Below, one piece after another: positions 729-16,245 of a stretch of 64,000 nt of DNA. The position numbers and the translations under genes were made by a program. The notes under the pieces were generated by a model. It ran no database searches, was not told the origin of the DNA, and saw only the letters and a list, made by a program, of their open reading frames with translations. Position 1 is the stretch's first letter. Every line of letters begins with the position of its first letter. Source of the DNA: Octadecabacter sp. B2R22 (GTDB lineage Bacteria; Pseudomonadota; Alphaproteobacteria; Rhodobacterales; Rhodobacteraceae); assembly GCF_018861045.1 (NCBI RefSeq), contig NZ_JAHKQJ010000002.1:186001-250000 (forward strand), given 5' to 3'.

Positions 729-1922
729 TTAACCTTTGACGGCTTTCACAATCTTTTCAGCACCGTCGCTAAGGTCGTCAGCTGCGATCACGTCAACGTC
801 TGAGTTGTTGATGATAGCCTTACCTTCTTCGACGTTTGTGCCTTCGAGACGCACAACCAGCGGAACCTGAAGACCAACTTCTTTCACCGCAGAAACAACG
901 CCCTCAGCGATTACATCACAGCGCATGATACCGCCGAAGATGTTCACAAGGATGCCTTTGACGTTCGGGTCAGACGTGATGATCTTAAACGCTTCTGTGA
1001 CTTTCTCTTTGGTCGCACCGCCACCAACGTCGAGGAAGTTTGCAGGTTCAGCACCGTAAAGTTTGATGATGTCCATTGTGGCCATCGCCAGACCAGCACC
1101 GTTCACCATGCAGCCGATTTCACCGTCAAGCGCGATGTAGTTCAGGTCGAACTTGGACGCCGCGAGCTCTTTGGGGTCTTCTTCTGTTTCGTCACGCAGG
1201 GCCGCAATGTCAGCGTGGCGGTAAACCGCGTTGCCGTCGAATGCGACTTTCGCGTCGAGAACCTTGAGGCTGCCTTCGTCAGTGATGATCAGCGGGTTGA
1301 TTTCCAGCATTTCCATGTCTTTTTCGGTAAACGCTTTGTAAAGCTGACCCATCAGCTGAACGCACTGCTTAACCTGTGCGCCCTTAAGGCCCAAAGCGAA
1401 TGCAACGCGACGCCCGTGGTAGGCTTGGTAGCCAGTCGCAGGATCAACTGTGAAGTTCAGGATTTTCTCAGGGGTGTTCTCAGCCACTTCTTCGATGTCC
1501 ATGCCGCCTTCGGTGGAGACAACGAAACCGATGCGGGATGTCTGACGATCAACCAGCAGGGCGAGGTACATTTCTGTTTCAATGCCGGAACCGTCTTCGA
1601 TGTAGACGCGGTTCACTTGCTTGCCGACTGGGCCAGTCTGGTGCGTGACCAACGTGCGGCCCAACATCTTCTTGGCTTCTTCTGCCGCTTCGGCGACAGA
1701 TTTTGTCAGACGCACACCGCCAGCATCGCCAGCGTCTGCTTCTTTGAATTTACCTTTGCCGCGACCACCTGCGTGGATCTGCGCCTTAACAACCCACAAT
1801 GGGCCGTCCATTTCGCCTGCGGCGGTTTTTGCATCTTCTGCCTTCAGGACGGCGCGGCCGTCGCTGACTGGTGCACCGTATGATGCCAATAGCGCCTTGG
1901 CCTGATATTCGTGAATGTTCAT
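729..1922 (-). CDS. sucC: Succinyl-CoA synthetase beta subunit
   Basis: Beta subunit (397 residues, normal length) of succinyl-CoA synthetase, carrying the ATP-grasp nucleotide site and contacting the alpha subunit. The N-terminus MNIHEYQAK is the family signature and decides the start, although the frame stays open about 110 bases further upstream. The glycine-rich [11 protein letters not shown] region and C-terminal [10 protein letters not shown] are typical. The 270-base gap to mdh holds the mdh terminator and a two-part palindromic operator, so sucCD probably has its own regulated promoter instead of depending on mdh read-through. Confidence 0.97.
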
Positions 1923-2021
1923 GGAAGCCGTCCTTCGTCTATGAATTAGCGTTCTCATAGCTATAGACAGGTTAATCGCAGGTTCAGAACGGATTTTTTC
2001 AACTTTACCCGAAAAAGCGAC

Positions 2022-2058
2022 ATTTGTGATCACAGTGTTTTAGGGTGTGATCACAAAT
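2022..2058. promoter_or_regulatory. Two-part palindromic operator upstream of sucC
   Basis: Perfect inverted repeat with 13-base arms, ATTTGTGATCACA and TGTGATCACAAAT, separated by 11 bases. Each arm contains the self-complementary decamer TGTGATCACA (2025-2034 and 2046-2055). The decamer centres are 21 bases apart, about two helical turns, which suggests two dimers bound on the same DNA face. It lies 100-136 bases before the sucC start. The same layout occurs before sdhC at 7361-7397. The regulator is unknown. Confidence 0.75.
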
Positions 2059-2145
2059 CTCCAATGTGGGAGCGCAAACAGTGTTTATTCCTGCTTTACG
2101 GGGAATCACATAAGCCAAAACCTAGCTTGGGCGAGGCCCAAAAGA

Positions 2146-2173
2146 AAACGGGCGCCCTAGTGAGCGCCCGTTT
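2146..2173 (-). terminator. Rho-independent terminator of mdh
   Basis: A 10-bp perfect stem (AAACGGGCGC paired with GCGCCCGTTT) with an 8-base loop, followed on the minus strand by TTCTTTT. It starts 22 bases after the mdh stop, which separates mdh from sucCD transcription. Confidence 0.85.
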
Positions 2174-2195
2174 AAGATCGTCTGGGTCGTTTGGC

Positions 2196-3182
<987 letters not shown>

Positions 3183-3394
3183 TCAGGTTGATCGTAGTGG
3201 TGTATTTCCGAAGGTTGCCTAGTCCTTTGCGCACCATCGTGCAAGCCCGCCGCACCGCCGCATCACGCAAGCCCTTATTTATTGGTCATTGTTTATGGAC
3301 GAAACATTGCGTTAGCGTAAACAAAGCACAGGTCACCGGTATACAATTGCATGCCGAACCCGCTTGGTGATTCCCGTCTGCGAAAGGCCAATTC

Positions 3395-4138
3395 ATGGAA
3401 GGCACGACATTCTGGGCGCTGGCGCTTCTCGCGGCGTTTTGCATTGGCTTGTCGAAAGGTGGGGCACCCGCATTCGGGACGTTGGCCGTACCAATTATGG
3501 CCCTATCGATCTCGCCAGTCGCGGCTGCAGGGCTCTTGCTCCCGGTCTTCCTCTTCTCGGATGTCTTCGGGGTCTGGGCCTACCGAAATCACATCCACTG
3601 GGGGGTCGTCAGGATCGCGTTCGTTGGGCTGCTTGTCGGGACGGCCGTTGGTTGGGCAACAGCGCATGTCGTCCCTGAACGGCTTGTCCGGGTCCTGATT
3701 GGGCTTATCGGGCTTGTATTTGCGCTTTATTTGTTGACCAGTCGTAAAGGCGAAGTTGATCCAAAACCGATTAACAAAAAGGCTGGTTGGATCTGGGCAT
3801 CGATCGCAGGTTTTACCAGCTTTGTAAGCCACGCCGGAGCACCACCTTGGCAGGTTTGGGTGCTACCGCTGGGCCTGCCAAAAATGATTTTTGCAGGCAC
3901 GACGGCGGTTGCATTTGCGATTATGAACATGTTGAAGGTCATACCTTACTACATGTTGGGGCAGCTCCAATTCGAAAGCCTCAAGGTGACGTTAGTGTTG
4001 TTCGTGCCTGCCTTTCTTGGCGTAATGGTGGCTTATCAGCTGGTTCGAGTGATTCCAGTGCGGGTATTCTATGCGATCGTAACTTGGATGCTGTTGGCCG
4101 TGTCGATCAAATTGATCTGGGACGGACTGACTGGTTAA
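3395..4138 (+). CDS. TauE/SafE-family membrane permease
   Basis: A 247-residue polytopic membrane protein of the TauE/SafE (DUF81) family, whose members are linked to export of sulfite, sulfoacetate or other small anions. The pattern is two halves of about four hydrophobic segments joined by a charged linker (SRKGEVDPKPINKK, about residues 115-128). The family glycine motifs appear as LSKGGAPAFGT near the N-terminus and FVSHAGAPPWQ at the start of the second half. It stands alone between mdh and a convergent small gene (4-bp tail overlap), so the substrate cannot be inferred. A second family member lies at 24099-25019. Confidence 0.85.
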   Translation: MEGTTFWALALLAAFCIGLSKGGAPAFGTLAVPIMALSISPVAAAGLLLPVFLFSDVFGVWAYRNHIHWGVVRIAFVGLLVGTAVGWATAHVVPERLVRVLIGLIGLVFALYLLTSRKGEVDPKPINKKAGWIWASIAGFTSFVSHAGAPPWQVWVLPLGLPKMIFAGTTAVAFAIMNMLKVIPYYMLGQLQFESLKVTLVLFVPAFLGVMVAYQLVRVIPVRVFYAIVTWMLLAVSIKLIWDGLTG

Positions 4139-4546: not shown

Positions 4547-4668
4547 ACTGGAACGGTGCCGTTGCGCTGCGATGCGGCATTTTCGCCCTTGCAACATCAC
4601 AAAAAATCTGGCCCTTTTGGCGCAACATAATTTCAAGGCCCGTGCGGGCCCAAAATCGAGAGTTCGCC

Positions 4669-5514
4669 ATGTCACGACCACACCGTTCCGCCCTTTATAT
4701 TCCTGGCTCCAAGCCCCGCGCACTGGATAAAGCCCGCGGCTTGCCCGTCGATGTGATCCTGTTTGATCTCGAAGACGCGGTCACACCGGCAGAAAAGATC
4801 GTCGCTCGCACAACCTTGGCCGAAGAGCTTGGTAAGGGCGGCTACGGGACCCGCCTGCGCGTCGTGCGCATTAACGGGTTGGACACGCAGTGGGGCAAAG
4901 AAGACGCCGCCGCCGCCGATAAGATGGAGTGCGATGCAGTGCTGTTGCCCAAAGTAAACAGCGCCGCAGACGTAGATGCACTGGCGGCTCTCACGGACAA
5001 GCCGATCTGGGCGATGATGGAAACGCCGCTCGGTATCCTGAACGCGCTCGAAATTGCGGCGCACCCAAAGATCAAAGGCTTTGTGCTGGGGACAAACGAC
5101 CTCGCCAAAGATTTGAACACCCGCAACCGTGCCGATCGTGAACCGCTGCTCACGTCTTTGCAATTGTGCCTTTTGGCTGCCCGCGCGCACGGCGTTGTTG
5201 CCGTGGACGGCGTCTATAACGCCTTCAAAGACGAAGAAGGGTTCAAAGTGGAATGCGAACAAGGCCGCGACATGGGCTTTGACGGCAAAACCCTGATCCA
5301 CCCTGCACAGGTCGACGCTGCGAATGCTGCTTTTGCCCCCACAGCGGATGAAATCGACCTCGCCGAGCGCCAGATCGCCGCTTTCGCGGAGGCAGAGGCT
5401 GCGGGGCAGGGTGTCGCCGTTGTTGACGGCAAGATCGTCGAGAACTTGCATATCGTCACCGCCCGCGCGACCTTGGCCAAAGCAGCAGCCATCGCGGAGC
5501 TTGAAAGCCAATGA
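4669..5514 (+). CDS. CitE/HpcH family: probable (3S)-malyl-CoA thioesterase
   Basis: A 281-residue member of the HpcH/HpaI aldolase (CitE-like) family. It shows the metal- and CoA-site motifs FDLEDAV (32-38), METPLGI (117-123), GTNDLAKDL (141-149) and GKTLIHPAQ near 215. In Rhodobacter, malyl-CoA lyase (Mcl1, about 318 residues) and the shorter malyl-CoA thioesterase (Mcl2) both come from this family. The length and the position between mdh and mesaconyl-CoA hydratase favour Mcl2, which hydrolyses malyl-CoA to malate at the end of the EMC pathway. A citramalyl/malyl-CoA lyase activity remains possible. ATG at 4669 is preferred because MSRPHRSALYIPG is the usual family N-terminus. The next gene overlaps by ATGA. 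Confidence 0.85.
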   Translation: MSRPHRSALYIPGSKPRALDKARGLPVDVILFDLEDAVTPAEKIVARTTLAEELGKGGYGTRLRVVRINGLDTQWGKEDAAAADKMECDAVLLPKVNSAADVDALAALTDKPIWAMMETPLGILNALEIAAHPKIKGFVLGTNDLAKDLNTRNRADREPLLTSLQLCLLAARAHGVVAVDGVYNAFKDEEGFKVECEQGRDMGFDGKTLIHPAQVDAANAAFAPTADEIDLAERQIAAFAEAEAAGQGVAVVDGKIVENLHIVTARATLAKAAAIAELESQ

Positions 5515-6056
5515 CACTTATCATCCTCGGTCTCGCCCTTTGGGCGGGTGTCCATTTCTGGAAACGGGTCGCACCAGATCACCGCGCCGCGTTTGGCGAA
5601 AAGGGCAAAGGCATCGTTGCCATCGGTAGCGTTATCGCCATTGTTCTTATGGTGATTGGCTACCGCATGGCCGACGGCGCAGGCTTCTGGGGCCGCTCTT
5701 CTGCCATGACAGGCATAAACAACATTTTGATGTTGTTTGCGTTTTACCTGTTTGCCGCGTCCGGTAAGGGCACGCGCATCACTCGCATCATCCGCCATCC
5801 GCAACTGACGGCGATGGTTGTTTGGTCCATCGCGCACCTCTTGGTGAACGGGGATACGACGTCTTTCGTCCTGTTTGGTGGTCTTGGTATCTGGGCTGTC
5901 GCTGAAATGGTCGTGATCAACCGCGCCCAAGGTCCACGCGGCGCCTACCACGCCCCACCGATCAAATCCGAAGTCATCGCCGCCGTTGCCACCCTTGTGG
6001 TGTTCAGCATCGTTGCAGGCATTCACCTTTGGCTCGGCTACAACCCGTTTGGATAA
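5511..6056 (+). CDS. NnrU-family integral membrane protein
   Basis: A 181-residue membrane protein with about five hydrophobic segments and the NnrU-family signature around HPQLTAMVVWSIAHLLVNGD (residues about 98-117) followed by LFGGLGIWAV. NnrU was first noted near nitrite/nitric-oxide reductase genes, but its role is unknown and no denitrification genes are nearby. It overlaps the preceding gene by four bases (ATGA) and is followed after 3 bases by the DUF1737 gene, so it is translated within the EMC operon. Its presence there is unexplained. Confidence 0.85.
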   Translation: MTLIILGLALWAGVHFWKRVAPDHRAAFGEKGKGIVAIGSVIAIVLMVIGYRMADGAGFWGRSSAMTGINNILMLFAFYLFAASGKGTRITRIIRHPQLTAMVVWSIAHLLVNGDTTSFVLFGGLGIWAVAEMVVINRAQGPRGAYHAPPIKSEVIAAVATLVVFSIVAGIHLWLGYNPFG

Positions 6057-6059
6057 TCT

Positions 6060-6266
6060 ATGACCACTATTTACCGTTTCCTCACCGAGGACGACACCTC
6101 CGCATTCTGTCACAAAGTCAGTGAGGCCCTTTCCAAAGGGTGGGCGCTCCATGGCGACCCGCAATACACGTTTGATCAGGCCAACGGCGTGCTGCGCTGC
6201 GGCCAAGCCGTCACCAAAGACATCGATGTAGAGTACACTCCAGACATGAAGTTGGGCCAACAATGA
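6060..6266 (+). CDS. DUF1737-type small protein
   Basis: A 68-residue soluble protein resembling DUF1737: YRFLTEDDTSAFCHKVSEAL followed by GWALHGDP, a compact fold seen in many proteobacterial genomes with no assigned role. It starts 3 bases after the NnrU-like gene and overlaps the mesaconyl-CoA hydratase start by ATGA, so translation is probably coupled. The location suggests a tie to the EMC operon, but nothing in the sequence shows catalysis. Confidence 0.8.
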   Translation: MTTIYRFLTEDDTSAFCHKVSEALSKGWALHGDPQYTFDQANGVLRCGQAVTKDIDVEYTPDMKLGQQ

Positions 6267-7294
6267 CCAAAACAAACTCCGGCCGCTTCTTCGAAGATTA
6301 CACCGTTGGGCAAGTGATCGACCACGCCGTGCCACGGACCGTGTCCGGTGGAGAACGCGCACTGTATCACATGCTCTATCCGGCACGTCATGCGCTGCAC
6401 TCCTCGGATGCCTTCGCCCAAGACTGCGGATTGCCAAACAGCCCACTGGACGACTTGATCGCGTTTCATATCGTTTTCGGTAAGTCCGTGCCCGACATTT
6501 CATTGAACGCTGTTGCGAACCTTGGCTATGCGGAATGCCGCTGGCTTTTGCCTGTCTGGCCGGGTGACACGATCCGTTCTACATCCGAAGTCATCGGCCT
6601 TAAGCAGAATTCTAACGGCAAATCCGGCGTTGTTTATGTGCGCACCACGGGCACGAACCAAAACGGCGAAACCGTCATGCAATTCGTGCGCTGGGTTATG
6701 GTGCGCAAAGGCAATCTGGATGCGCCTGCGCCAGAAACGGTCATTCCCGATCTCGCCAAAGTCGTTGAGGTCGCTGATCTGACGATCCCCAAGGGCCTGA
6801 ATTTTGAGAACTATGACTTTACGCTCGCCGGAGAGCCGCACCGTTTTGGGGACTACAAAGTCGGCGAGATCATTGACCACGTTGATGGTGTGACAATTGA
6901 GGAAGCCGAACACATGATGGCGACCCGTCTTTGGCAGAATACCGCCAAGGTTCACTTTGATGTCACGTCTCGCCCAGACGGCAATCGCTTGATCTATGGC
7001 GGTCACGTGATCTCAATGGCGCGGGCGCTGACGTTCAACGGCCTCGCCAATGCGCAAACGATGGTTGCTATCAATGGCGGTGCCCATGCGAACCCGTGTT
7101 TTTCGGGGGACACCGTGCGCGCATGGTCCGAGGTTCTCGATACCGCGCCAACCTCTGCACCGGGTGTCGGCGCGATCCGATTGCGGCTCGTTGCGACCAA
7201 AGGCGGGGTCGTCGGCGCGCTAAAGGGAGAGGACGGAAAATACCTGCCACATGTGCTGCTTGATCTGGATTACTGGGCGTTGATTCCCGTCTGA
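6263..7294 (+). CDS. mch: Mesaconyl-CoA hydratase
   Basis: Mesaconyl-CoA hydratase of the EMC pathway, hydrating mesaconyl-C1-CoA to beta-methylmalyl-CoA. The 343-residue protein has two MaoC-like hot-dog halves: N-terminal (FEDYTVGQVIDH) and C-terminal (FGDYKVGEIIDHVDGVT), with the second half containing INGGAHANPCFSGDTV. Length and double-domain layout match the Rhodobacter/Methylobacterium enzyme. It is the last gene of a tightly overlapping unit beginning at 4669. Downstream is the sdhC promoter region, with no terminator visible between them. Confidence 0.93.
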   Translation: MTKTNSGRFFEDYTVGQVIDHAVPRTVSGGERALYHMLYPARHALHSSDAFAQDCGLPNSPLDDLIAFHIVFGKSVPDISLNAVANLGYAECRWLLPVWPGDTIRSTSEVIGLKQNSNGKSGVVYVRTTGTNQNGETVMQFVRWVMVRKGNLDAPAPETVIPDLAKVVEVADLTIPKGLNFENYDFTLAGEPHRFGDYKVGEIIDHVDGVTIEEAEHMMATRLWQNTAKVHFDVTSRPDGNRLIYGGHVISMARALTFNGLANAQTMVAINGGAHANPCFSGDTVRAWSEVLDTAPTSAPGVGAIRLRLVATKGGVVGALKGEDGKYLPHVLLDLDYWALIPV

Positions 7295-7360: not shown

Positions 7361-7397
7361 ATTTGTGATCACTCGCCGCAAAGCTGTGATCACAAAT
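7361..7397. promoter_or_regulatory. Two-part palindromic operator upstream of sdhC
   Basis: Arms ATTTGTGATCACT and TGTGATCACAAAT separated by 11 bases, with the same 21-base centre spacing as at 2022-2058. The decamers are 7364-7373 (last base T instead of A, one deviation) and 7385-7394 (perfect). It lies 142-178 bases before the sdhC start and 66 bases after mch. The spacers of the two sites differ in sequence while arms and spacing are kept, which argues for a protein-binding site. Confidence 0.75.
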
Positions 7398-7538
7398 CGA
7401 AAAAAGTGGGCTCCGACGGTGAATTTTCCACCATGTTAGCGCCCACGCTTCGTGACACTCGCGGAATATCCTTTAAGAAGGTGGCAAGATATGCCGTGGC
7501 ATAGCTGCGGCAAATAGCCAGCGTAAGGGATTGAATAC

Positions 7539-7922
7539 ATGGCCGACGTGAATAGGGGCAATCGCCCGCTTTCTCCGCATTTGTCGATCTATCGACCACA
7601 ACTCACCTCAATGACGTCTATCTTTACACGTCTCACAGGGAACGCTCTGATTGTAGGCGCGTTGTTGGCGGTTTGGTGGTTCGTAGCACTCGCCGCTGGG
7701 CCTGTTGCCTACGCTCGCGCAAATGGGTTCATCACCAGCTGGTTTGGCGACTTGATCATGTTCGGGTCTGTGGCCTGTATTTGGTATCACATGCTTGCTG
7801 GCATCCGTCACCTCGTGTGGGATAGCGGGCATATGCTTGACGTTGAACGTTCCGAGCTCGCTGGCATGGCGATCATCATTGTGTCGGTCTTGCTGACCAT
7901 CTTCACCGTCATCGTATTGTAA
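7539..7922 (+). CDS. sdhC: Succinate dehydrogenase cytochrome b556 subunit
   Basis: Membrane anchor subunit of complex II (127 residues, three transmembrane helices), helping bind haem b and ubiquinone. The N-terminal signature RPLSPHLSIYRP carries the serine and arginine of the quinone site, and HMLAGIRHLVWD in the second helix contains the haem-ligand histidine. It is first in the sdhCDAB operon, 12 bases before sdhD, and is preceded by the double-palindrome operator. The ATG at 7539 gives the family-standard N-terminus. Confidence 0.96.
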   Translation: MADVNRGNRPLSPHLSIYRPQLTSMTSIFTRLTGNALIVGALLAVWWFVALAAGPVAYARANGFITSWFGDLIMFGSVACIWYHMLAGIRHLVWDSGHMLDVERSELAGMAIIIVSVLLTIFTVIVL

Positions 7923-7934
7923 GGGGGCTGAAAC

Positions 7935-8306
7935 ATGGCTTTTTTGACTGATCGTAAACGCGCGGTGGGCATGGGCTCCGCTAAATCCGGAACTCAACAC
8001 CACTGGCAGATGATGGTATCCGCTGTTGGACTGTGTGTTCTTGTGCCGCTGTTTGTCTTCACTTTCGGGTATGCGCTGGGCATGTCCTATGAGGACGCCG
8101 CCGCATACTACGCCCGCCCATTTCCCGCGATTGTTGGCATTCTGACCTTGCTGGTCGGTTTCTACCATTTCAAAGGTGGCGTGCAGACATTGATCGAAGA
8201 TTACGTGCACGGCTTTGCCCGCAAAGCACTGATCATCGGCTCTATCTGCCTGAGCTACGCCGCCGCTGCTGCTGGCGTTTTCGCCATCGTGCGAGTTGCC
8301 CTGTAA
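7935..8306 (+). CDS. sdhD: Succinate dehydrogenase membrane anchor subunit
   Basis: Second membrane anchor of complex II (123 residues, three predicted helices). Early residues GSAKSGTQHHWQMM and the third-helix motif HFKGGVQTLIEDYVHG are typical of alphaproteobacterial SdhD. With SdhC it docks the SdhAB catalytic pair to the inner membrane and forms the quinone site. It starts 12 bases after sdhC, and sdhA follows after 29 bases. Confidence 0.94.
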   Translation: MAFLTDRKRAVGMGSAKSGTQHHWQMMVSAVGLCVLVPLFVFTFGYALGMSYEDAAAYYARPFPAIVGILTLLVGFYHFKGGVQTLIEDYVHGFARKALIIGSICLSYAAAAAGVFAIVRVAL

Positions 8307-8335: not shown

Positions 8336-10141
8336 ATGGCTGAATACGAATACGAAACCCACGAATATGATGTTGTTGTGGTTGGGGCAGGCGGCGCTGG
8401 TTTGCGCGCCACGCTCGGCATGGCTGAACAAGGCCTGCGCACCGCGTGTATTTCCAAGGTTTTCCCGACCCGCTCGCACACTGTTGCGGCACAAGGCGGT
8501 ATCGCGGCATCCCTGTCCAACATGGGGCCGGATCACTGGCAGTGGCACATGTATGACACCGTAAAAGGGTCTGACTGGTTGGGTGACACGGATGCGATGG
8601 AATACCTCGCTCGCGAAGCGCCCAAAGCGGTTTATGAACTTGAACACTATGGCGTGCCATTCTCTCGTACGGAAGAAGGCAAGATCTACCAGCGTCCCTT
8701 CGGTGGTCACACAACCGAATTCGGCGAAGGCCCCGCGGTGCAGCGCACCTGTGCCGCCGCTGACCGGACAGGCCACGCGATCCTTCACACGCTGTATGGT
8801 CAGTCTCTGAAACAGCAGGCTGAGTTCTACATCGAATACTTTGCGATCGATTTGATCATGTCCGATGACGGTGTCTGCACAGGCGTTGTCTGCTGGAAGC
8901 TAGACGATGGCACGATGCACGTCTTCAACGCCAAGATGGTCGTTTTGGCGACTGGTGGTTATGGGCGCGCATATTTCTCTGCCACGTCGGCGCACACCTG
9001 TACAGGTGACGGTGGCGGCATGGTGGCCCGTGCGGGCCTGCCATTGCAGGATATGGAATTCGTTCAGTTCCACCCGACAGGCATCTACGGTTCCGGCTGT
9101 TTGATCACCGAGGGTGCACGCGGCGAAGGCGGTTATCTGACCAACTCCGAGGGCGAACGGTTCATGGAACGCTACGCGCCGAACTACAAAGACCTCGCGC
9201 CGCGTGATTACGTGTCCCGCTGTATGACGATGGAAATTCGCGAAGGCCGCGGTGTTGGCGCCAATGGCGACCACATCCACCTGAACCTCAACCATCTTCC
9301 GAAAGAAGCCTTGGCTGAACGCCTTCCAGGTATCTCAGAATCCGCGAAAATCTTTGCGGGTGTGGACGTGAACAAAGAACCGATCCCTGTATTGCCAACC
9401 GTGCACTATAACATGGGCGGCATTCCAACGAACTACTTCGGCGAAGTCCTGAACCCGACTGCAAAAGACCCGAACGCCGTTGTGCCGGGCCTGATGGCCG
9501 TTGGCGAAGCGGGCTGTGCGTCCGTTCACGGTGCGAACCGTCTTGGGTCCAATAGCCTCATCGACCTTGTGGTCTTTGGTCGTGCCGCGGCGATCCGCGC
9601 TGGCGAAGTCGTGGACCGCTCTTCTGCGATCCCATCCACGAACACCGCATCTGTCGATAAAGCGTTTGATCGCTTTGATGGTCTGCGCAACGCGGACGGT
9701 GGCACAACAACCGCCGATCTGCGCCTTGAAATGCAAAAGGCGATGCAAGCAGATGCTGCTGTGTTCCGTACAGACAAGACCTTGAAAGAGGGCGTCGAAA
9801 AGATGACAGCCATCGCGGGCAAAATGGGCGACCTCAAAGTCACCGACCGCAGCCTCGTTTGGAACTCGGACCTGATGGAAACGCTGGAACTCGACAACTT
9901 GATGCCAAACGCATTGGCCACAATCGTCGGTGCCGAAGCGCGTAAAGAATCCCGTGGCGCCCACGCTCATGAAGATTATGCTACGCGCGACGATGAAAAC
10001 TGGCGCGTTCACACAATCAGCCGCATCGAGGGCGCAAAGGTCGAACTGTCTCACCGTCCAGTGATCACAGAACCGCTGAGCACGGAAAAAGAAGGCGGCA
10101 TCAGCCTCAAGAAGATCGCGCCAAAAGAACGGACGTTCTAA
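8336..10141 (+). CDS. sdhA: Succinate dehydrogenase flavoprotein subunit
   Basis: Catalytic flavoprotein of complex II, oxidising succinate to fumarate. It has 601 residues. The FAD motif [10 protein letters not shown] is at about 14-23, the covalent-FAD histidine is His48 in [11 protein letters not shown], and the active-site regions include HPTGIYGSG and [11 protein letters not shown]. The stop codon shares one base with the start of a small secreted gene, so the sdh operon continues, but sdhB is displaced 0.9 kb downstream by three small genes. Confidence 0.97.
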
Positions 10142-11058: not shown

Positions 11059-11838
11059 ATGGTTCAACTGACCCTGCCTAAGAATTCCCGCATGACGACG
11101 GGCAAAACATGGCCCAAGCCTGAAGGCGCCAGCAATCTGCGCAAGGTGCAGATCTACCGCTGGAACCCTGACGACGGTAAGAACCCGAGCTTGGACACCT
11201 ATTTCGTGGACATGGACAGCTGCGGACCAATGGTTCTGGATGTCCTGATCAAGATCAAGAACGAGATTGATCCGACCCTGACCTTCCGTCGGTCCTGCCG
11301 CGAAGGTATCTGTGGTTCCTGCGCGATGAACATCGATGGTATCAACACGCTGGCCTGTATCTACGGCATGGATGAAATCGCGGGCGATATCAAAATCTAT
11401 CCACTGCCGCACATGCCGGTCGTGAAAGACTTGATCCCTGACCTGACGCACTTCTACGCGCAACACGCGTCTGTCATGCCGTGGCTGGAAACCAAAACGA
11501 ACCGTCCAGCCAAGGAATGGAAACAGTCCATTGAGGATCGTAAGAAACTCGACGGTCTTTATGAATGCGTGATGTGTGCGTCCTGTTCTACTTCCTGCCC
11601 ATCCTATTGGTGGAACGGTGATCGCTACCTTGGGCCAGCAGCGCTGCTGCATGCCTACCGTTGGATCATCGACAGCCGTGATGAGGCCACAGGCGAACGT
11701 CTGGACGACCTTGAGGATCCGTTCAAGCTCTACCGCTGTCACACCATCATGAACTGCGCAAAGACGTGCCCAAAGGGTCTCAACCCAGCGGCCGCCATCG
11801 CGCACATCAAGAAAATGATGGTCGAACGCACAGTCTAA
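11059..11838 (+). CDS. sdhB: Succinate dehydrogenase iron-sulfur subunit
   Basis: Iron-sulfur subunit of complex II (259 residues) passing electrons from SdhA to ubiquinone. All three clusters are visible: the 2Fe-2S motif [15 protein letters not shown] with a downstream LAC, the 4Fe-4S motif [11 protein letters not shown], and the 3Fe-4S/4Fe-4S C-terminal motif [14 protein letters not shown]. It is last in the operon and is followed by a strong terminator 24 bases after the stop. Confidence 0.97.
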
Positions 11839-13777: not shown

Positions 13778-14101
13778 CTAGATTGCCATGCTGTCCGGGT
13801 CAGTGCCGCCGGAAACCGCAGATTTAAACCATTCGGGCTGGCGACCTTTACCAGTCCAAGTTTGAGACGCATTAGCTGGGTTCGCAAATTTAGGAGCCGA
13901 TTTGGTTTTCGGGCCAGACTTACGTGCCGCTTTGCCACCCAACACTTCTTCCAAGGTTAGATTATTGGCAGCGGCCAATTTTTCCATTTCCGCGCGAACT
14001 TTTTTCACATCCTGTTTGCGTAGGTTCTCAAGAGCGATAGTCACGTCACGGCCCAGGTCTTCGAGATCTTTTCGAGTCATTGTTTCAAGATCGAATTGCA
14101 T
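13778..14101 (-). CDS. H-NS family DNA-binding protein
   Basis: A 107-residue nucleoid protein of the H-NS/HvrA family. The N-terminal half is a coiled-coil oligomerisation region (about 5-47), followed by a lysine-rich linker and the C-terminal DNA-binding motif TWTGKGRQPEW (81-91). In Rhodobacter the homologue HvrA/Spb modulates photosynthesis and nitrogen genes. Here nothing shows its targets. The start MQFDLETMTRKDLE is the family N-terminus; an upstream in-frame ATG at 14164 is unlikely. Confidence 0.92.
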   Translation of the reverse strand: MQFDLETMTRKDLEDLGRDVTIALENLRKQDVKKVRAEMEKLAAANNLTLEEVLGGKAARKSGPKTKSAPKFANPANASQTWTGKGRQPEWFKSAVSGGTDPDSMAI

Positions 14102-14265
14102 TTGTTTGTCCCCTTTATATGCCATCGGCATTAAGAAACGCGCAGGCGTTAAAAAAGGACGCATGCGCCTAAATTGGACAAAAAGATATGAACTTTCTCG
14201 CGATTTGCGAAAATCTGCCGATTGGACGTTGGCTTCACTCTAGTGTGGTGAACTGATAAATCGTT

Positions 14266-16245
14266 TTATTGGGCGGCAATTGTCGCAGGGTCAGCCAAGG
14301 TCACAATATCATTCATTATGACATTCAACTCGAAATCCTTGGGTGTGTAGACCCGCGCGACGCCGATGGCCTCCAAATGCGCGGCGTCTTCGTCTGGAAT
14401 AATCCCGCCGACAACGACAGGAATATGATTTAGCCCTTGGGTGCGCATTTTTTCCATCAATTCAGTGATCAATGGAATATGTGATCCCGATAGAATGGAC
14501 AGGCCAATGACATGCGCCTCATCGCGAACTGCTGCTTCAAGGATTTCGTCAGGCGTCAAACGAATGCCTTCGTAGGTAATATCCATGCCGCAGTCACGCG
14601 CACGGGCAGCGATTTGTTCGGCTCCGTTTGAGTGACCATCAAGGCCCGGTTTGCCCATCAAGAACTTCAACTTACGCCCAAGTTTGGAGCTCACCGCCGA
14701 AACGCGTTCGCGGATCTCGTCGAGGCCCTCTGTGCGGTTGGATGGGTTGTGGCTCACGCCGGTCGGACCACGGTATTGCCCGAATGCCTGACGGATCACT
14801 TCCGCCCATTCGCCTGTTGTAACACCTGCTTTTGCGGCCGCGACGGATGGGATCATGATGTTGCTGCCATCCAATGCCGCCGCCTTCAGGTCGGCCAGTG
14901 CTTTGGCAACAGCGTCACTGTCTCGTTCGGTTTTCCACGCATCAAGGCGCGAAAGTTGGTCTGCCTCTGCTTCAGGATCACTAACCATAATCGCATCTTC
15001 ACCAGACGTCAGCGGCGACGGTTCACCATTCTGGAACTTGTTCACGCCAATAACGGTGGTTTCGCCGCTTTCAATTCCAGCAATGCGGGCAGCGTTGGAT
15101 TCAACCAAACGCCCCTTCATATATTCGATCTTTTCTTGCGCATCGCCCATGGCATTAATCTGCGCCAATTCCGCACGCGCGCCGTCTTTGAGCGCATTCA
15201 CTTTGCGTTCTACCGCTGGATTGCCCTCAAACAGATCGTCGTATTCCAGCAGGTCAGTTTCAAACGCCAAAATCTGCTGCATCCGCAAGGACCATTGCTG
15301 GTCCCAAGGACGCGGCAAACCTAAGGCTTCGTTCCATGCCGGTAATTGCACAGCGCGGGCGCGGGCATCTTTGGACAATGTCACGGCCAGCATTTCGATT
15401 AGAATGCGGTAAACGTTATTCTCTGGCTGCTGCTCGGTCAGGCCCAATGAATTGACCTGAACGCCGTAGCGGAAACGGCGGAATTTCGGATCTTCAACAC
15501 CATAGCGCTCGGCGCAAATCTCATCCCAAAGTTCAACAAAGGCGCGCATTTTGCACATCTCGGTGACAAACCGAATACCCGCATTCACAAAGAACGAAAT
15601 ACGCCCCACCATGGCTGGGAAATTTTCGGCAGGAACTTTGCCTTTAAGATCGTCCAAAACTGCAATTGCTGTAGCCAAAGCGAAAGCCAGCTCTTCTTCG
15701 GGTGTCGCGCCGGCCTCTTGCAGGTGGTAGGAACAGACGTTCATCGGGTTCCATTTTGGAAGATGTTCACGGGTAAACGCGGCCACATCTGTAATCATTC
15801 GTAGGGACGGGGCTGGGGGACAGATATATGTCCCGCGGCTTAGGTATTCTTTGATGATGTCATTTTGCACAGTGCCCTGCAGGGCGGACACATCTGCACC
15901 CTGTTCTTCGGCAACGGCGATATACAGCGCCAACAGCCAAGGGGCCGTCGCGTTGATCGTCATTGAGGTGTTCATCTTTTCCAGCGGAATATCGTCAAAC
16001 AACGCACGCATGTCGCCCAAGTGACAAACCGGAACCCCAACCTTACCGACTTCACCCCGTGCCAGCACGTGATCGCTGTCATAGCCCGTCTGCGTTGGCA
16101 GATCGAACGCAACCGAAAGCCCCGTCTGCCCCTTTGCCAGATTGCCCCGATACAGCGCGTTGGACGCTTTTGCCGTGGAGTGGCCCGCATAGGTGCGAAA
16201 CAGCCAAGGGCGGTCTTTGGTCAGGGTTTTCTGCGTCTGCGACAT
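14266..16245 (-). CDS. ecm: Ethylmalonyl-CoA mutase
   Basis: Adenosylcobalamin-dependent ethylmalonyl-CoA mutase (also called MeaA), converting (2R)-ethylmalonyl-CoA to methylsuccinyl-CoA in the EMC pathway. The 659-residue single chain fuses the TIM-barrel mutase domain (about 1-500) to the B12-binding domain, with GLDGHSNG supplying the cobalt-ligand histidine (His538). The length and the N-terminus KDRPWLFRTYAGHSTA separate it from methylmalonyl-CoA mutase (over 700 residues) and isobutyryl-CoA mutase. It is divergent from the acyltransferase that leads into ccr, whose product is its substrate. Confidence 0.95.
   Translation of the reverse strand: MSQTQKTLTKDRPWLFRTYAGHSTAKASNALYRGNLAKGQTGLSVAFDLPTQTGYDSDHVLARGEVGKVGVPVCHLGDMRALFDDIPLEKMNTSMTINATAPWLLALYIAVAEEQGADVSALQGTVQNDIIKEYLSRGTYICPPAPSLRMITDVAAFTREHLPKWNPMNVCSYHLQEAGATPEEELAFALATAIAVLDDLKGKVPAENFPAMVGRISFFVNAGIRFVTEMCKMRAFVELWDEICAERYGVEDPKFRRFRYGVQVNSLGLTEQQPENNVYRILIEMLAVTLSKDARARAVQLPAWNEALGLPRPWDQQWSLRMQQILAFETDLLEYDDLFEGNPAVERKVNALKDGARAELAQINAMGDAQEKIEYMKGRLVESNAARIAGIESGETTVIGVNKFQNGEPSPLTSGEDAIMVSDPEAEADQLSRLDAWKTERDSDAVAKALADLKAAALDGSNIMIPSVAAAKAGVTTGEWAEVIRQAFGQYRGPTGVSHNPSNRTEGLDEIRERVSAVSSKLGRKLKFLMGKPGLDGHSNGAEQIAARARDCGMDITYEGIRLTPDEILEAAVRDEAHVIGLSILSGSHIPLITELMEKMRTQGLNHIPVVVGGIIPDEDAAHLEAIGVARVYTPKDFELNVIMNDIVTLADPATIAAQ

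Follow-up and report, generated by a model that had tools for sequence, protein, structure and literature searches.

A two-palindrome operator upstream of sdhCDAB and sucC in Octadecabacter, most likely the target of an AkgR ortholog

The window analysed here, a stretch of 64,000 nucleotides from Octadecabacter sp. B2R22, carries the genes for succinate dehydrogenase and the beta subunit of succinyl-CoA synthetase, each preceded by an operator made of two palindromes (hereafter the doublet):

729..1922, minus strand: sucC, succinyl-CoA synthetase beta (ATP-grasp_2 and Ligase_CoA domains)
2022..2058, minus strand (that of the gene): two-palindrome operator upstream of sucC, cores at 2026-2033 and 2047-2054 (pattern search)
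7361..7397, plus strand: two-palindrome operator upstream of sdhCDAB, cores at 7365-7372 and 7386-7393 (pattern search and family conservation)
7452..7479, plus strand: predicted sdhC promoter, -35 GTGACA at 7452-7457, -10 TAAGAA at 7474-7479, 16-bp spacer (Gibbs/PWM alignment of sdhC upstream regions)
7539..7922, plus strand: sdhC, succinate dehydrogenase cytochrome b556 subunit (NCBIfam TIGR02970, over cut-off)
7935..8306, plus strand: sdhD (TIGR02968, over cut-off)
8336..10141, plus strand: sdhA (TIGR01816, over cut-off)
11059..11838, plus strand: sdhB (TIGR00384, over cut-off)

The sucC gene heads a run of genes on its strand, sucC-sucD-DUF805-sucA-sucB-(298-codon ORF)-lpd, which continues past the start of the window. 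Ethylmalonyl-CoA-pathway-like genes adjoin the TCA cycle genes and lack the operator. Between the mdh block and sdh (4642-7294) lie CitE/malyl-CoA-lyase-like and hydratase-like genes, which score below the curated NCBIfam cut-offs, and a methylmalonyl-CoA-mutase-type gene is found downstream of sdh (14266-16245). A gene for a small H-NS-like protein (PF00816) occupies 13778-14164 on the minus strand.

The doublet before sdhC has the form ATTTGTGATCAC-N13-GTGATCACAAAT, spelled out ATTTGTGATCAC TCGCCGCAAAGCT GTGATCACAAAT, and lies between an open frame ending at 7294 and the sdhC start at 7539. Its counterpart, on the minus strand, precedes sucC by about 100 bases. The core of each palindrome is GTGATCAC, and the distance from core centre to core centre is 21 bp at sdhC and at sucC alike. 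Re-reading of the sequence upheld the coordinates that a first-pass annotation had given for the sdhC element, as well as its 21-base centre spacing in both copies. The 11-base spacer it described applies to arms taken as 10-mers (13 bases separate the 8-bp cores), and the single altered base it reported is a T in place of A, in the sdhC-distal arm at the position adjoining the spacer. A search of the window with the core-plus-spacer pattern TTTGTGATCAC-N8..18-GTGATCACAAA returned two matches, against none in 100 shuffles. The absence of a third copy from the 64 kb, also reported in that annotation, extends to the whole genome (3.3 Mb, 99% complete), where a search for exact cores separated by 8-18 bases returned just the two doublets, as did one allowing up to three mismatches with spacer 13. 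The hits are thus not scattered before unrelated genes. When the single arm TTGTGATCACAA was sought with at most one mismatch, 12 places were found in the genome. Three are doublet arms and one is a perfect copy before a GntR gene (G000:C4:175804-175815); the other eight fall within open frames 150 or more codons long, although an open frame is no proof of a gene. The operator pair before sdhC and sucC is confirmed as real, and its anatomy is unusually clean.

The doublet (cores GTGATCAC, spacer 8-18) is present in 175 of 198 genomes surveyed from the host's family. By eye, exactly two doublets were counted in about 128 of these genomes, a single one in 37, and three or four in 10; the reversed control pattern scored 0 in the rows of the survey table. 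In a draw across the class, with spacer 12-14, the doublet was found in 6/6 genomes of the family versus 5/381 others, and so the operator is mainly a feature of the host's family. Two doublets outside the family (L225 and L231) fall inside open frames. Those at L223, L224 and L232 lie between likely genes, and only the one at L224 adjoins a relative of AkgR, the regulator discussed below. The L232 copy (L232:1501-1530, another alphaproteobacterial family) is a GTGATCAC doublet with a 14-base spacer, located between class-III aminotransferase and chemotaxis-receptor-like genes. Among sucC and sdhC doublets with spacers 12-14, at loci not selected for 13, the spacer is 13 in 63/69 and 12 in 6/69.

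A scan of named genomes with the pattern TTGTGATCAC-N13-GTGATCACAA yielded at least 119 loci and at least 122 doublets. Among the matches listed (122 doublets, 119 named loci), sucC lies downstream of 90 and sdhC of 29. One of the other three is placed before sucA and two are on a sucC side that is cut; in the latter (L052 and L113) the doublet is on the sucC side of mdh, with sucC truncated by the end of the locus. The sucA case, also among the matches listed (L141:597), has the doublet directly before sucA (777-3710) and adjacent to mdh; a sucC was not found in this locus, and its SucA protein is 72% identical to that of the present genome over 981 residues. The genes of this locus run sucA-sucB-lpd and then sdhB, and its G+C content is 39%. 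A third doublet in genome G042 (L018:1501-1529) lies about 125 bases before fumC, encoding a class II fumarase (1654-3024; TIGR00979, over cut-off), and by its position would add one more TCA step to the regulon of that lineage. Other third sites were set aside: two copies with 10-base spacers in G044 (the L017 copy lies inside an open frame) and one with a 16-base spacer in G047 were taken as chance matches, and those of G135 and G191 proved to be triplet arrays (see below) rather than new targets. The way in which doublets keep to these genes strongly supports the idea, already put forward from the window, that the sucC and sdhC units share one dedicated regulator. The regulon had also been described as centred on succinate. 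With sucAB in the sucCD strand run, sucA in L141 and fumC in G042, the controlled segment would rather extend from 2-oxoglutarate to fumarate. Copies before further TCA cycle genes, for which the first-pass annotation had suggested a search, were found at sucA in L141 and at fumarase, the latter in a single genome among those whose extra sites were inspected.

A Pfam scan of nine ORFs near sdh and mdh detected no GntR protein among them, and none of the nine FCD matches in the genome falls inside the window. The search with the palindrome pattern located a candidate regulator outside the window: a gene of 216 codons (L166:5823-6473 = G000:C4:175823-176473), about 10 kb before the window with its end about 9.5 kb before the window start, whose product has GntR (PF00392) and FCD (PF07729) domains, both over cut-off. 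One perfect palindrome lies directly 5' of its ATG. Opposite to it stand a TerB-like gene and then lpd, sucB, sucA, the DUF805 gene and sucD, all on the sucC strand; the candidate thus faces the far end of the sucCD-sucAB-lpd run, with the small TerB-like gene separating it from lpd. AkgR of Rhodobacter sphaeroides, which we take to be the protein RSP_0981, reportedly activates several TCA cycle genes directly, as described in an mBio paper on this regulator. In the accessible part of PMC4344238, RSP_0981 is a GntR-family protein, like the candidate, predicted to control sucCD, sucAB and sdh, i.e., succinyl-CoA synthetase, 2-oxoglutarate dehydrogenase and succinate dehydrogenase, as here. The accessible part of PMC6365646 gives GTGATCAC among the AkgR binding sites, again as here. 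The present genome encodes a regulator with GntR and effector domains and has exact GTGATCAC cores at both doublets and before its own akgR; the sucCD, sucAB and sdh targets agree by position, in this genome and in the family loci, and regulator and operator occur jointly in 171 of the 198 genomes. The candidate gene is probably the ortholog of R. sphaeroides akgR, and, judged by motif, targets and family, the regulator of the doublets is most likely this AkgR ortholog. The dedicated regulator proposed from the window is therefore not a new one.

The best E-values obtained with the candidate protein in the 198 genomes leave a gap between 3e-78 and 2e-61, and strong orthologs were defined by E <= 1e-75. 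Both doublet and strong ortholog are present in 171 genomes and both are missing from 19; four have the doublet only (G019, G033, G096 and G114) and four the ortholog only (G040, G147, G155 and G166). The association gives a Fisher p of 5e-19, from counts read by eye and with ancestry ignored, and the co-occurrence owes partly to shared ancestry. The 8/198 discordant genomes speak against binding by AkgR. Four of them (G147, G166, G033 and G096) are 71-77% complete. G040, with the ortholog only, has a one-mismatch doublet before sdhC, and G155 and G019 gave no sdhC match. G114, rated 100% complete, has two doublets yet a weak AkgR match (1.8e-29). An sdhC match was obtained in 17/22 genomes, namely 20 of the 23 doublet-negative ones plus G114 and G019. 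In the 15 sdhC-bearing genomes without a strong ortholog (G114 and G040 excluded), no doublet within 3 mismatches of 16 was found in the 450 bases upstream of sdhC, the nearest being that of G157, with 4 mismatches.

Among the best 30 akgR loci (the present genome included), an exact core lies upstream of akgR in 20 and in none of the other 10. The core starts 17 bases before the ATG in 13 of the 20. All 30 loci have a YgjP-like match, and 16/30 an Lpd match, in about 3.6 kb each. In G135 (C8:374318-374367) and G191 (C11:327609-327658), three palindromes stand in a row with a 21-bp pitch; these triplets correspond to loci L242, L250 and L252, classed as suc-side by gene match. Because one core is found at akgR, two at sdhC and sucC, and three in G135 and G191, the unit is the palindrome and not a long inverted repeat.

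Alignment of the sdhC upstream regions revealed, on the gene side of the operator, a promoter-like sequence, GTGACa-N16-TAtnaa; at the sdhC site of the window, a generic sigma-70 scan did not detect any promoter. In the window, the -35 element begins 59 bases after the operator core, the mode of the family being 59-60. A clear -35, defined as [GT]TGAC, occurs in 69 of 79 distinct sdhC regions. In all 69, the distance from operator core to -35 start falls into one of four narrow classes: 48-49 (2 regions), 58-61 (58), 70-71 (4) and 79-81 (5). Thus, in clear cases, the distance changes by whole helical turns and never by a fraction; across the family, the predicted promoter appears shifted relative to the operator by minus one, plus one or plus two whole turns. 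For the same 69 regions and a period of 10.5 bp, the Rayleigh R reaches 0.89 when distances run from the operator to the -35, but only 0.10 and 0.08 when they are taken from operator to ATG and from -35 to ATG, respectively. Restricted to the 11 off-mode sites, R is 0.90 (p 1.5e-4 under independence), and a quickly built DNA tree covering 77 of the 79 regions requires at least 8 changes of distance class. The remaining 10/79 regions, which lack a clear -35, were left out of this analysis; the best weak matches in them include some in phase and some out of phase. Shuffling produced a clear -35 in, on average, 11.7 of 79 regions, so that chance might account for a few of the 69; yet none is out of phase. 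When every [GT]TGAC was counted and not just the best, 70/79 occurrences were at the whole-turn places.

Phasing is messier at sucC than at sdhC. Two promoter searches there were discarded: the first had converged on an A+T element beside the operator, the second chiefly on sequence immediately 5' of the ATG. A third, started from a fixed offset, yielded a weaker -35-like element, its 16-column version being noisier. Of 140 regions examined, 111 could be scored: 81/111 are in a peak at 36-38 bases, 21/111 (the window's own copy among them) are one turn nearer, and 9/111 are elsewhere. Off-mode sites give R 0.84 with a 34-column model (111/140 scored) and 0.62 with a 16-column model (108/140). 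Two of the nine are the triplet genomes, which appear two turns off because their distances were measured from the outer pair.

These data bear on how the doublet acts. The whole-turn distances at sdhC favor activation from a fixed face of the DNA. Most FCD/GntR regulators are repressors, however, and repression loops also need helical phasing; AkgR might therefore bind the doublet and repress sdhCDAB and sucCD, for instance through a DNA loop or by obstructing another activator. The position of the akgR site, immediately 5' of the ATG, resembles that of a repressor site. The sdhC operator, in contrast, is clear of the predicted -35, which begins about 59 bases farther downstream, and in the present genome no additional arm (exact or with one mismatch) that could serve a loop was found close to either promoter. 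AkgR is, moreover, termed a transcriptional activator in the accessible part of PMC6365646. On balance, repression seems unlikely.

Activation by AkgR must also be weighed against the possibility that the doublet is bound by another regulator of central carbon metabolism, either CceR, of the LacI family, or NtrC. For R. sphaeroides, sdh is a predicted target of both CceR (RSP_1663) and NtrC (PMC4344238, accessible part), and the CceR regulon of that species is said to include succinate dehydrogenase, 2-oxoglutarate dehydrogenase and fumarase (PMC11323563, accessible part). Yet the RSP_1663 motif given in the former source, [A/G/T]GTT N6-8 AAC[A/C/T], compared by eye, is not GTGATCAC, and the doublet tracks an FCD GntR gene that has the same palindrome upstream of itself, which makes binding by CceR or NtrC very improbable. 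CceR probably shares the sdh and suc promoters through its different motif, and it is quite possible that CceR and NtrC both control these promoters from sites other than the doublet. That the inverted repeat works as an RNA hairpin (an attenuator, or a processing or stability element) is harder still to credit: both copies do fold as RNA (-17.2 and -19.9 kcal/mol, z about -5.4), but so does any DNA palindrome; the element lies upstream of the predicted sdhC promoter; and the occurrence of single copies, and of triple ones with a 21-bp pitch, suits a repeated protein-binding unit and not one stem.

We are thus fairly confident in a reading in which the AkgR ortholog binds the doublet, two dimers on the same face activate sdhCDAB and sucCD-sucAB, and the single akgR site serves autoregulation. 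One dimer would occupy each GTGATCAC-centred palindrome, and the 21 bp between two of them, equal to two helical turns, would place both dimers on one face of the DNA. At sdhC, the pair would be centred about 107 bp before the presumed start. From some 100 bp upstream of the transcription start, it would activate sdhCDAB and sucCD-sucAB through a face-dependent contact with RNA polymerase or a short loop; this direction of regulation, like AkgR binding itself, is inferred or taken from the papers cited above. The single palindrome near the akgR start codon would mediate autoregulation, most likely negative, limiting AkgR synthesis. It seems somewhat more plausible than otherwise that, in general, the AkgR operator is a phased array of one to three dimer-binding palindromes with a 21-bp pitch and a fixed helix face toward the polymerase, whose copy number sets its role (one for akgR autoregulation, two or three for sdh and suc activation).

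Both the regulator and its principal targets have been described before in the related species R. sphaeroides. Compared with that regulon, the doublet and triplet arrays, the single akgR site and the helical phasing are described here from sequence, and one genome has the further doublet before fumC. A literature search, the reach of which did not include the original AkgR paper, returned, among the matches listed, no other description of the operator, its array structure or the whole-turn spacing; within that reach, GTGATCAC and GntR occur jointly in one paper. GTGATCAC is also the proposed site of PS417_07240 of Pseudomonas simiae, a regulator of the deoxyribonate cluster 32% identical to AkgR (PMC6365646, accessible part); it differs in controlling a catabolic cluster, in having one palindrome near the start codon and in belonging to another bacterial class. 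In another alphaproteobacterial family, an FCD/GntR gene (L224:992-1903; 32% to AkgR over 215 residues) has GTGATCAC-N13-GTGATCAC upstream; this gene, unlike akgR, is divergent to a TonB-receptor-like gene (Plug domain), with no sdh or suc match in the 2.5 kb examined. The GTGATCAC palindrome thus seems to be shared by a wider FCD subgroup. The best solved relative of the candidate by sequence, McbR (PDB 4p9f; E 1.3e-20), is a distant one.

What had been an isolated pair of palindromes is now tied to a named regulator and to a compact regulon (sucCD-sucAB, sdhCDAB and akgR) kept across a large bacterial family. To our knowledge, the mechanism of activation has rarely been shown for the mostly repressive FCD/GntR family, and the whole-turn spacing amounts to a natural experiment on activation by such a regulator from about 100 bp upstream.
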